This document shows positions 7,011-11,599 of a stretch of DNA of 64,000 bases, piece by piece. The stretch is from Ignavibacteriales bacterium (lineage in GTDB: Bacteria > Bacteroidota > Ignavibacteria > UBA10030). Numbering within the stretch: the stretch's first letter is position 1; every line of letters begins with the position of its first letter. The notes beneath the pieces are model-generated. The model was not told the origin of the DNA. It did no database searches and was given only the letters and a program-made list of their open reading frames with translations. The position numbers were made by a program, and so were the translations under genes. The stretch spans positions 62,001-126,000 of the forward strand of contig JAPLFQ010000005.1 of the NCBI GenBank assembly GCA_026390595.1, in the 5' to 3' direction.

Positions 7011-8699
7011 TTGCACCAACGTCTTGAGCCAAAACTGTTTTCTATTCTCCGCAAGGGGTACACGAGAAAAGAGCTGGCATCAGATCTCGTGGCCGGTGTC
7101 ATTGTCGGCATCGTTGCATTGCCGCTTGCCATCGCTTTCGCCATTGCATCGGGCGTCAAACCGGAGCAGGGGTTGTACACTGCCGTCATTGCGGGACTGG
7201 TCGTCTCGGTGTTCGGCGGCAGCCGTGTTCAGATCGCCGGACCGACAGGCGCATTCATTGTTATCGTCTACGGCATTGTGCAGAAATTTGGATACGACGG
7301 CCTGGCCGTTGCAACTCTCATGGCCGGGGTTTTTCTTATCATCATGGGTCTTGCAAGGCTGGGCACACTCCTCAAGTTCATACCATACCCGCTGACGGTC
7401 GGTTTCACGAGCGGGATCGCCCTGATCATTTTCACGTCGCAGATCAACGATTTCCTGGGCCTGCACATCCGGAACCTACCTTCGAATTTCTTCGAGAAGT
7501 GGTATGTGTACGCGCAGAGTCTTCGCGTCATTGATGTCAATTCACTTCTTGTGGGGCTGGGCTCTCTTCTCATTCTTGTGTTTTGGCCCCGTGTTTCGCA
7601 CCGGATCCCGGGCCCCCTCGTGGCCCTTCTTGCTGCCACCGCTGTGGTTCAGATCTTCAAAATTCCGGTTGAGACGATAGGATCCAGGTTTGGCAGCGTA
7701 GCACATGGACTTCCCGCGCCTCATTTCCCAAAGGTGACATGGCACATGGTCACCAGTCTCGTTTCTCCCGCAATCACCATCGCGCTCCTCGGATCAATTG
7801 AGTCGTTGCTTTCCGCTGTCGTGGCCGACGGCATGATCCGCACGCGCCACCGATCCAACATGGAATTGATAGCACAGGGAGCAGCGAACATCCTGTCGCC
7901 GCTGTTTGGCGGTATTCCGGCCACCGGCGCCATAGCGCGAACGGCGACAAACGTGAAAAACGGGGGTCGAACTCCTGTCGCCGGCATCGTCCACGCAGTT
8001 ACTCTGTTTCTCATCATGATTTTCTTTGGCCGCTGGGCATCGCTGATTCCTTTTCCCGCGCTGGCCGCTATCCTCGTCGTTGTCTCATACAACATGAGCG
8101 AGTGGCATTCGTTCATGAAAGTCCTCCGAAGCCCGATGAGCGATGTCGCGGTCCTGCTTGTGACGTTCGCATTGACCGTGATCGTTGACCTCACCGTGGC
8201 AATCGAAGTTGGCATCGTGTTGGCCGCTCTTCTCTTCATGAAACGAATGTCGGAGGTCAGCCAGGTAAACGCCATCACACGGGATCTACAGGAAGAACGG
8301 GAAGAAGAAGAAACCGCAGGCCCGAAGCGTGCAATTCCGGAAGGAGTTGAGGTCTTCGAAGTGTACGGGACGCTCTTTTTTGGGGCCGTCGATCAATTCA
8401 CCGAATCGATACGCTTCATCGAGAAAAAACCCTCGGTCCTCATCCTTGAAACCCGCAATCTCCTTGCCGTTGACGCGACCGGGCTGCGCGCACTCGATGA
8501 GCTTTACTCTCAACTCTCGCACCAGCAAACGCACTTTATTATCTCAGGAATTCACAAGCAGCCTCTGTTTGCAGTGCAAGGGTCGGGCCTCCTCGATCGC
8601 GTCGGCGAAGACAATATCTGCGGAGACCTTGATGAAGCACTGGAAAGAGCCAGCGTTCTCACAGAGCAGCGTGAACCGCCCGCATTGCAGCCGGATTGA
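7011..8699 (+). CDS. SulP-family anion transporter with STAS domain
   Basis: This 562-residue permease moves inorganic anions such as sulfate or bicarbonate across the inner membrane. Around a dozen hydrophobic helices run from residue about 25 to 420, starting with DLVAGVIVGIVALPLAIAFA and GLYTAVIAGLVVSVFGGS, the SulP signature, and containing GGIPATGAIARTATNVKNGG. A cytoplasmic STAS domain fills the C-terminus (about 440-550: VFEVYGTLFFGAVDQF, ETRNLLAVDATGLRALDEL). The frame has no upstream ATG; a TTG at 7011 behind GAGAGGAAGGG is the likely start. The neighbours do not show which anion is carried. A small methyltransferase gene follows 24 bases later. Confidence 0.9.
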   Translation: MHQRLEPKLFSILRKGYTRKELASDLVAGVIVGIVALPLAIAFAIASGVKPEQGLYTAVIAGLVVSVFGGSRVQIAGPTGAFIVIVYGIVQKFGYDGLAVATLMAGVFLIIMGLARLGTLLKFIPYPLTVGFTSGIALIIFTSQINDFLGLHIRNLPSNFFEKWYVYAQSLRVIDVNSLLVGLGSLLILVFWPRVSHRIPGPLVALLAATAVVQIFKIPVETIGSRFGSVAHGLPAPHFPKVTWHMVTSLVSPAITIALLGSIESLLSAVVADGMIRTRHRSNMELIAQGAANILSPLFGGIPATGAIARTATNVKNGGRTPVAGIVHAVTLFLIMIFFGRWASLIPFPALAAILVVVSYNMSEWHSFMKVLRSPMSDVAVLLVTFALTVIVDLTVAIEVGIVLAALLFMKRMSEVSQVNAITRDLQEEREEEETAGPKRAIPEGVEVFEVYGTLFFGAVDQFTESIRFIEKKPSVLILETRNLLAVDATGLRALDELYSQLSHQQTHFIISGIHKQPLFAVQGSGLLDRVGEDNICGDLDEALERASVLTEQREPPALQPD

Positions 8700-8723: not shown

Positions 8724-9290
8724 ATGGATCTTTCGTTTGTCCTCGCGCCAGTATCCATTGTCTGGATAGGCTCCGAAATTCTCCTCGCGAGGTTGAAGCA
8801 TTCCGATCAGAAAGGCCCGAGCCGGGATCGCCGCTCCATCATCATTCTGTGGCTGGCTATTTCGCTTTCAATCCCCGCGGCTATCGTCGTTCGCTTCCTT
8901 GGGGTAGGATACCTACCGTTCAACCACGCCATGATGAATCTCGGCGGGTTGATGCTGATCGTCATGGGCCTTATACTGCGATGGGTAGCAGTGTTGACCC
9001 TGCGGAAATATTTCACCGTCGACGTCGCGATCCTCAGCGATCACAAAATCATAACCGCCGGAGTGTACAAACATCTGCGACATCCATCGTACACGGGCAT
9101 CCTCGTTTCGTTTGTGGGGCTCGCGATAACATACTCGAATTGGGTGTCGTTCGTCGTGATCGTTGTCCCGATCACAGCGGCCTTTCTTCACAGGATCCGT
9201 ATCGAAGAGCGCGCACTGCTGGAACATTTTGGCGAATCCTATCGCCGCTATTGTGCCTCAACGTGGCGCCTAATTCCTCGCATGTATTGA
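8724..9290 (+). CDS. Isoprenylcysteine carboxyl methyltransferase-like membrane protein
   Basis: This 188-residue protein has about four to five membrane helices and the C-terminal signature of the ICMT/phospholipid methyltransferase family: GVYKHLRHPSYTG, then RIRIEERALLEHFGESYRRY near the end, which in the family forms the S-adenosylmethionine and substrate site. Bacterial members are of mostly unknown substrate, since bacteria lack prenylated CaaX proteins; lipid or small-molecule methylation is likely. The ATG at 8724 has AAAGGA about a dozen bases upstream. The Lnt-like gene follows 16 bases later. Confidence 0.8.
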   Translation: MDLSFVLAPVSIVWIGSEILLARLKHSDQKGPSRDRRSIIILWLAISLSIPAAIVVRFLGVGYLPFNHAMMNLGGLMLIVMGLILRWVAVLTLRKYFTVDVAILSDHKIITAGVYKHLRHPSYTGILVSFVGLAITYSNWVSFVVIVVPITAAFLHRIRIEERALLEHFGESYRRYCASTWRLIPRMY

Positions 9291-9306: not shown

Positions 9307-10155
9307 ATGAACCGACAGGCAATGGTCAGCCGTTTGTTTTCCCTCGCCGCGGTAGCCGCGACCGGTGCACTTTATTTCTTTTCCACCGGACTGACCGGCA
9401 TCAGACCGCTCGTGTGGATTGCTCCCGTTCCGGTTCTATTTCTTTCGATGCGATCTTCACGACGGGACACAGTCGCGATTGCCTTCTGCGCCTACATCCT
9501 GGGCGAACTAAATCTTGTCGGGTCTATGGCAGCAGCGGCATCAATCGGTGTTGTCATCGGTTCACTCCTGATTCCTGCGCTCGCATTTGCCGTCATTGTT
9601 GTCGCTTTTAGAGATGCCATCGTGCACCTCCGGCATCCGCTTGCGTTCCTCGCATTTCCGGTGGGTTGGACTGCCTATGAATTCATCCTCGCAAGCGTCT
9701 CTTCCCATGGGAGCGCTGGAAGCATCGCATACACGCAATCCGATTTTCTCCCTCTTATCCAGATTGCTTCACTTGCGGGAATTCAAGGCATCACGTTCGT
9801 CGTGACTCTTGTCCCCGCCGGCATTGTTGCAGCACTCAATGTTCGCAGCCGAAGAGAATTTCTTCTGACACTCTCGGTTGTGCTGGCCGTCGCGTTTGGG
9901 ACTCTGGTGTACGGTTGGAACCAACTCGCGGCACCCGCGTCCGAACAATCCGTTCGCGTTGGACTCGTGTCGAGCAACTCTGCCTCCGTCAATCAGCCGA
10001 TTTCAGTTCTCAGCGATGCGAGACCCGGAAATAGCCATAGATTCTATCCTGCTGCCGGTGACTGGTTTGCCTGGGTAAATCTCGTCTTCCTTCTGATTCT
10101 GGTAGCAGCGGTATCGAAGCGTCTCATGCGACACCGAACCCACATTGCTCGATGA
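9307..10155 (+). CDS. Lnt-like membrane protein lacking the nitrilase domain
   Basis: This 282-residue protein looks like apolipoprotein N-acyltransferase with its catalytic core removed. The N-terminal half has the Lnt membrane region: RPLVWIAPVPVLFLSMR, PLAFLAFPVGWTAYEFI, then SHGSAGSIAYTQSDFLPLIQIASLAGIQGITFVV. The periplasmic CN-hydrolase domain should begin at VRVGLVSSN (about residue 217), and the protein should run on for over 200 residues with a Glu-Lys-Cys triad. Instead only about 30 residues follow before the usual exit segment GDWFAWVNL (about residue 251) and the last membrane helix. The frame stays open, so this is a clean in-frame loss. It cannot be a working acyltransferase. 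Its end overlaps a possible upstream extension of the M20 peptidase gene, though that gene's real start is later. It may be a decayed paralogue or a repurposed membrane protein. Confidence 0.7.
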   Translation: MNRQAMVSRLFSLAAVAATGALYFFSTGLTGIRPLVWIAPVPVLFLSMRSSRRDTVAIAFCAYILGELNLVGSMAAAASIGVVIGSLLIPALAFAVIVVAFRDAIVHLRHPLAFLAFPVGWTAYEFILASVSSHGSAGSIAYTQSDFLPLIQIASLAGIQGITFVVTLVPAGIVAALNVRSRREFLLTLSVVLAVAFGTLVYGWNQLAAPASEQSVRVGLVSSNSASVNQPISVLSDARPGNSHRFYPAAGDWFAWVNLVFLLILVAAVSKRLMRHRTHIAR

Positions 10156-10183
10156 GCATCATATCAAAGGAGCTCTTGTCACA

Positions 10184-11599
10184 ATGAAACACCGCGCCCT
10201 CAGTACCTTCGCCGCCCTGTTCGTTCTTGCGCTCTCGTGTTCCGTTCGTACGGTCTTTGCACAATCTTCAGCCGGGGGACTTTCCCCGCACCAGCAATTG
10301 GCACGTGAGATTTTCCGTGAAGTGGTTGAAATCAACACGACGATGAACGTCGGGAGCACAAAGGCTGCAGAGGCAATGGCGGCGCGCCTGAAAGCAGCCG
10401 GATTTGTGGACAATGATATGGAGCTCGTGGGGCCCCGCCCGCAGAACAAGAATCTCGTCGTGCGATACCGCGGCAAAGGAATCCATCGCCCGATCGTTAT
10501 TATTGCGCATCTTGACGTCGTTGAGGCGCTGCGTCAGGATTGGTCGTTTGATCCCTTTACATTTCTGGAAAAAGCCGGATTCTTCTACGGCCGCGGGGCG
10601 TCCGACATGAAGTGTGAGGTTGCAGACATCGTCGCAACCTTCATACGATTGAAGAACGAGGGATTCGTGCCGAGCCGCGACATCATTCTGGCATTGACAG
10701 AGCATGAAGAAAATGGAGACGCTAACGGAGTCCAGTGGCTGCTCGCAAACCGGCGGGATTTGATCGATGCGGAATTTGGCATCAACCTGGAAGGAGGAGG
10801 CGGAGATATTGAGAAAGGAAAACCAATCTTGCTGGAAGTCCAGACAAGCGAAAAAGTGTACGTGAGCTTTGAGCTTGAGGTGAAAAACAAAGGGGGACAT
10901 AGTTCGATTCCCGTGAAAGACAACGCGATCTACAGGCTCGCCGCCGGGCTTGCCCGCCTCTCACAGGTCGATTTCCCCGTCAGGCTTAACGAAACGACGC
11001 GCACTTTTTTCGGGCGGACAGCCCAGCGCGAGGAAGGCCAGACGAAGTCCGACATGCTGGCAATTTTGAAGACACCGATCGACGAAGCGGCTGCAAATCG
11101 ATTGGCCGCATCAAAGCCCTACTATAACGCACTGATGCGGACTACGTGGGTTCCGACGATGCTGAACGGCGGCCATGCGGAAAATGCTCTGCCACAGAGC
11201 GCGCGGGCAGTGGTAAATTGCCGTATGCTCCCTGACGAAAAGGTCGAAACGGTCCTTGCGATGTTTCATCTTTTCCTTGCCGACAGCCAGATTACTGTGA
11301 CCCAGATTGCTCCGGCGCGCCCCGGACCGCTTTCGCCGCTGAGAAAAGATGTCATGGACGCAGTCGATCAATTGGCTGCATCGATGTGGCCGGGTGTCAC
11401 GGTGACTCCGGTGATGTCTACCGGCGCCTCTGACGGGAAATTTCTTCGCCAGGCGGGCATACCGGTGTATGGTGTATCCGGTATGTTTGCAGACATCGAC
11501 GACGTCAGAGCTCATGGCCGGGATGAGCGGCTTGGTGCCAAGGAATTTTACGACGGCGTGGAATTCATGTACAGATTCCTCCGACTCCTGAATCAGTAG
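10184..11599 (+). CDS. Secreted M20-family metallopeptidase
   Basis: This 471-residue zinc peptidase has an N-terminal signal peptide (residues 1-26, hydrophobic core then VFAQ). Metal ligands of the M20 fold are visible: IIAHLDVVE (HxD), GRGASDMK (bridging Asp), LTEHEENGDANG (catalytic Glu pair), NLEGGGG and the late RAHGRDERLG His. The middle lid/dimerisation domain starts at VSFELEVKNKGGHSSIP. Family members cleave dipeptides or remove C-terminal or acyl-linked amino acids; the export signal implies periplasmic peptide scavenging. The ATG at 10184 follows AAAGGAGCT and is much better than a start at 10145, which would add residues before the signal peptide. Confidence 0.88.
   Translation: MKHRALSTFAALFVLALSCSVRTVFAQSSAGGLSPHQQLAREIFREVVEINTTMNVGSTKAAEAMAARLKAAGFVDNDMELVGPRPQNKNLVVRYRGKGIHRPIVIIAHLDVVEALRQDWSFDPFTFLEKAGFFYGRGASDMKCEVADIVATFIRLKNEGFVPSRDIILALTEHEENGDANGVQWLLANRRDLIDAEFGINLEGGGGDIEKGKPILLEVQTSEKVYVSFELEVKNKGGHSSIPVKDNAIYRLAAGLARLSQVDFPVRLNETTRTFFGRTAQREEGQTKSDMLAILKTPIDEAAANRLAASKPYYNALMRTTWVPTMLNGGHAENALPQSARAVVNCRMLPDEKVETVLAMFHLFLADSQITVTQIAPARPGPLSPLRKDVMDAVDQLAASMWPGVTVTPVMSTGASDGKFLRQAGIPVYGVSGMFADIDDVRAHGRDERLGAKEFYDGVEFMYRFLRLLNQ

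Follow-up and report, generated by a model that had tools for sequence, protein, structure and literature searches.

The open reading frame at positions 9307-10155 of the window, by which we mean the whole 64,000-nt stretch of Ignavibacteriales DNA analysed here, resembles the membrane part of apolipoprotein N-acyltransferase (Lnt) joined end to end, with its catalytic domain missing. An earlier note, made from the sequence letters, proposed that it could be a decayed paralogue or a membrane protein with a new role. The question raised by this locus is therefore whether the short gene is a protein in its own right, a gene on its way to loss or an error of assembly. The features concerned are the following, with G005 and G001 denoting two other genomes of the same genus:

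8724-9290, + strand: ICMT/PEMT-family gene, 16 nt upstream of the Lnt-like gene (Pfam ICMT, 1.3e-20)
9307-10155, + strand: internally deleted Lnt-like paralogue of 282 aa (open reading frame; LNT_N match, no CN_hydrolase; full-length orthologues in G005 and G001)
9307-9969, + strand: retained 5' part, with seven hydrophobic segments followed by VRVGLV, the first nitrilase strand (hydropathy scan; LNT_N over residues 20-169)
9970-9999, + strand: zone of the deletion join, where 202 codons of the G005 orthologue are absent (VRVGLV-ISVLSD spacing of 48 nt here and 654 nt in G005)
10000-10155, + strand: retained 3' part, with the last nitrilase stretch and the final hydrophobic segment at residues 251-269 (59% identical to the G005 C-terminal piece over residues 155-220 of the latter; hydropathy scan)
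10145-11599, + strand: downstream M20 peptidase gene, its start taken as the first TTG of the frame (Pfam Peptidase_M20, 2.6e-26)

In the list of open reading frames, the frame at 9307-10155 begins with ATG and has no internal stop. The Pfam LNT_N profile (PF20154) matched the 282-aa protein with an E value of 8.3e-14 and 52.5 bits (cut-off 27.1), so that the membrane domain of Lnt is present, as the earlier note had read from the letters. CN_hydrolase (PF00795) was not among the Pfam matches listed at E 1, and the nitrilase domain found in Lnt between membrane segments 7 and 8 is absent. The NCBIfam lnt model (TIGR00546) matched residues 65-224 only, with 49.2 bits, below its equivalog threshold of 132.9. 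The alignment to full-length relatives placed all three positions of the Glu-Lys-Cys triad within the missing stretch, and the loss of the triad was thus confirmed. A simple hydropathy scan gave seven segments before the join (residues 7-25, 28-46, 56-74, 82-100, 113-131, 159-177 and 185-203) and one after it, a rough count, since for the full-length G005 protein the scan returned no more than six plus one. Escherichia coli Lnt is described as having a seven-plus-one membrane layout, with the nitrilase domain at residues 215-478, ahead of the last helix (PMC5500890). An AlphaFold2 model of the 282-aa protein from a four-row alignment was too poor for use (mean pLDDT 52.0, pTM 0.47), and phmmer found no match to it among PDB sequences at E 0.1.

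The extent of the loss was measured between two anchors, VRVGLV, which ends at 9969, and ISVLSD, which starts at 10000. The difference in their spacing is 606 nt, and compared with the 490-aa G005 orthologue the gene has lost 202 codons, a multiple of three, so that the loss is in frame, as previously claimed. Walking the breakpoints against G005 placed them only within 9970-9999, the sister sequence being too diverged to pin them. The earlier note had called the domain cleanly missing; the loss itself stands, and removal at the exact domain edges does not, as roughly 35-40 residues of the nitrilase region appear, by our estimate, to be kept, namely the first strand and the last stretch ahead of the final membrane segment. 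The deletion begins beyond the first nitrilase strand, leaves the last membrane segment untouched and preserves the frame, a combination that would arise by chance only sometimes and that we counted against the reading of a decaying gene. A search with the G005 nitrilase piece over the contigs of the genome did not find the missing part elsewhere. Its best match was the retained C-terminus (59% identity), and the other four matches, at 26-28% identity, lay in frames carrying CN_hydrolase or Lnt matches.

The earlier note had suggested looking for a second, complete lnt, and one was found. PF20154 matched two places in the genome, the gene at 9307-10155 and a long frame on contig C33, whose product scored 290.2 bits with TIGR00546 and carries the motifs WPET, YKK, ICYE and NDSW. 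The C33 protein is the complete, canonical Lnt of this genome, and the short gene would therefore not be needed as a source of Lnt activity. The pattern search for these motifs did not pick up the Lys motif in L046 (G003) and came upon no suitable frame in L050 or L051. In G001, further weak matches of LNT_N or nitrilase type were seen (G001:C202:1817-2059 and G001:C190:1902-2294, the latter L051), in long frames of 505 and 613 aa; these are possibly other Lnt-like or unrelated proteins.

Full-length relatives of the short gene were found in four genomes. The nearest orthologue, in G005, is split over two contigs with exact 99-base shared ends and reads as 490 aa when joined (L021 with L018). 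In G001 (L005) there is one 546-aa stop-to-stop frame containing 183 N, or about 61 unknown residues. G343, which belongs to the same class, has a 504-aa frame (L035), and a Spartobacteria genome has a 492-aa relative (L022). Before the join, the 282-aa protein is 65-67% identical to G005 and 57-58% to G001; after it, identity is 58-67% to G005, but only 28% to G001. All four relatives keep the triad motifs, LPEK or IPEK, Y.K and ICKD (LPEK, YDK and ICKD in both G005 and G001). Only one of the four, joined G005, exceeded the TIGR00546 cut-off, by one bit (133.8), with G001 at 122.5 including its unknown residues, Spartobacteria at 116.5 and G343 at 115. By these scores, the full-length relatives form a putative divergent second Lnt-like paralogue, borderline as Lnt.

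Seven residues are called essential in E. coli Lnt, E267, K335, C387, W237, E343, Y388 and E389 (PMC3850990), and the full-length relatives do not have the full set. Besides the triad motifs they carry a Glu at the E343 column, and the Y388-E389 columns read K-D in all four, where Lnt has Tyr-Glu. W237, whose column was located by counting the residues of chain 5vrg (offset 2), is matched by Ile in the Spartobacteria protein, the one relative compared at this position. In the group as a whole, ICKD and PAWDF take the place of the ICYE and NDSW of Lnt. The G005 nitrilase piece matched nine of 395 genomes of the phylum, the present one included, at E 1e-12 or better; among the eight others only G343 has both ICKD and PAWDF. 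The remaining seven loci (L036-L042) show other letters, such as ICFD, ICYD or VCYD, and may thus belong to more distant Lnt-like or nitrilase groups.

Within the genus, the Lnt-like paralogue is full-length in two of six genomes (G005 and G001) and deleted in one, the genome studied here; the other three have a single LNT_N place, with a long frame. Three of the five other genus genomes thus show no second Lnt-like gene; one of them, G004, is only 84% complete. This patchy occurrence suggests that the paralogue is probably dispensable.

The gene order in the present genome is SulP, the ICMT-type gene, the Lnt-like gene, M20, a gene for a 127-aa protein, DUF1684 and dnaB. In G005, SulP and the first part of the Lnt-like gene lie on one contig, and the rest of the Lnt-like gene on the other, G005:C80, with M20 next to it (82% identical), what is left of DUF1684, and dnaB. 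The G001 locus consists of the Lnt-like gene, the 127-aa gene, DUF1684 and dnaB, and neither SulP nor M20 was matched in G001 at E 1e-20. No match to the ICMT/PEMT-family gene was found at E 1e-5 in the locus contigs of G005 and G001. In G002 and G003, SulP is followed directly by M20, without an Lnt-like match between them. Between M20 and dnaB of G005 (L065, G005:C80, about 7670-7990), a near-start piece and the end of DUF1684 are left; about 570 nt are gone and the two frames do not connect, so that the locus bears a second internal deletion, in the sister genome. Gain, loss and internal deletion of genes thus occur here more than once, which makes an ordinary deletion the simplest account.

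Conservation of the short form in related genomes had been proposed as a check for function, and none was found in three genome sets. Among 100 genomes, the present one included, 15 matched, and the only short frames in the 14 others were two G005 pieces at contig ends. Among 395 phylum genomes 71 matched, again with the present one, and the only other listed frame below 490 aa was one of 297 aa in G469, which was rejected as another short form because its ends, inspected by eye, do not resemble Lnt. LNT_N was found in 30 of 32 family genomes (own genome included), where the other frames below 490 aa, 404 aa in G011 and 358 and 299 aa in G005, run off contig ends and were likewise rejected, as contig-end cuts. 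No Lnt devoid of a nitrilase domain was described among the titles and abstract openings listed in literature searches.

We then compared rates of change in the retained part. Over its 269 codons, dN against G005 was 0.243 and dS 1.57, the latter near saturation, giving a dN/dS of about 0.16. Most of the divergence would thus have arisen under constraint, which was counted against the reading of a decaying gene. The dN values of neighbours in the same comparison were 0.071 for SulP, 0.119 for M20 and 0.041 for DnaB. The full-length group is itself fast-evolving: between G005 and G001, dN was 0.34 over the N-terminal part that is kept here and 0.36 over the deleted one. Amino-acid changes on the present branch and the G005 branch numbered 28:14 with G001 as outgroup (p 0.044), 23:9 with G343 (p 0.020) and 22:16 with Spartobacteria (p 0.42), by two-sided binomial tests that share data. 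Columns with all three sequences different (42, 54 and 49, respectively) were set aside, and G136 was left out of the selection test. A slightly wider choice of columns gave 30:14, 24:9 and 23:17. Synonymous changes were 18:21, 12:10 and 13:7 with the same three outgroups. None of the neighbours showed a significant difference (SulP 15:18 and 17:16 and M20 31:22 and 30:25, with outgroups G002 and G003; DnaB 12:11 with G001). The retained part thus shows a mild, outgroup-dependent acceleration on the present branch, about twofold, with two of three outgroups. These rates fit a deletion that is recent relative to the species split or a remnant with some constraint left; either fits.

Taken together, these observations point to an in-frame deletion, private to this genome, in a dispensable paralogue of Lnt type; the gene most likely broke recently and is drifting to loss. 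The starting point would be a dispensable second Lnt-like gene, distinct from the housekeeping lnt, in which one in-frame internal deletion of about 606 nt probably occurred in this lineage after its divergence from the sister species. If made, the protein would have about eight membrane segments and a short loop where Lnt has its nitrilase domain; having no Glu-Lys-Cys triad, it is predicted not to acylate. The gene would then drift towards loss as a young pseudogene. The catalytic part is gone compared with full-length orthologues and a complete homologue lies elsewhere, a pattern expected of a decayed paralogue. This proposal of the earlier note is supported by the complete Lnt on C33, by full-length orthologues in the same neighbourhood of sister genomes and by the failure to find the short form in the other genomes searched. 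The open frame without a stop was counted against it. We infer that the deletion is biological rather than a fault of assembly, that it happened once and that what remains of the gene is without function.

Two other explanations were weighed. The gene of the organism could be full-length, the assembler having skipped about 606 bases. The window does belong to a 36-contig assembly of unknown read type, and the break of the G005 gene, with its exact 99-base overlap in the nitrilase region, indicates that this gene can be hard to assemble. However, that break sits elsewhere in the gene than the join seen here, and such breaks are common in the G005 assembly, in which the canonical lnt, too, is interrupted by a contig end. 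No other contig of the present assembly yielded the missing domain, and the adjacent SulP, M20, DUF1684 and dnaB genes have long frames matching their families. We consider an assembly artefact unlikely.

The short protein could, on the other hand, be kept in a new role as a membrane helper, one that binds lipoproteins or phospholipids, for example, or assists the complete Lnt. Its open frame and its in-frame deletion, which leaves hydrophobic segments in the seven-plus-one layout of E. coli Lnt (PMC5500890), agree with such a role, and for second homologues, namely Streptomyces scabies Lnt2 and Mycobacterium bovis BCG_2279c, a contributing rather than directly acylating role has been proposed (PMC3850990). 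Against this, the short form was not found in the other genomes searched, the retained part changed somewhat faster with two of three outgroups, and the gene looks dispensable, given the genus genomes without it (the 84% complete G004 among them). We regard the new role put forward in the earlier note as quite improbable. Its boldest version, in which the nitrilase-free protein is expressed and retained as a 'pseudo-Lnt' that arose through one deletion and serves, without catalysis, as an eight-segment partner or regulator of lipoprotein maturation, seems very improbable indeed.

A private deletion in a spare paralogue, our preferred reading, matters little as a system, yet it illustrates how an in-frame domain deletion can mimic a novel protein architecture. 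A divergent and patchy second Lnt-like group, in some Bacteroidota and one Spartobacteria genome, is also indicated; its intact members keep the triad but not all of the other residues reported as essential in Lnt.

Compared with known systems, the 282-aa protein resembles E. coli Lnt (TIGR00546) in its LNT_N membrane domain and in its hydrophobic segments, seven before and one after the place of the periplasmic part, and differs from it in having neither nitrilase domain nor triad, and in a score far below the Lnt cut-off. It shares SulP, M20 and dnaB as surroundings with the G005 paralogue and only the downstream 127-aa gene, DUF1684 and dnaB with that of G001, whereas all four full-length paralogues keep the nitrilase domain and the three triad motifs. 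S. scabies Lnt2 and M. bovis BCG_2279c are likewise second Lnt homologues beside a working one, and one of the three triad residues is reportedly absent from BCG_2279c; unlike the protein described here, neither is presented, in the description used for this comparison, as lacking the nitrilase domain (PMC3850990).
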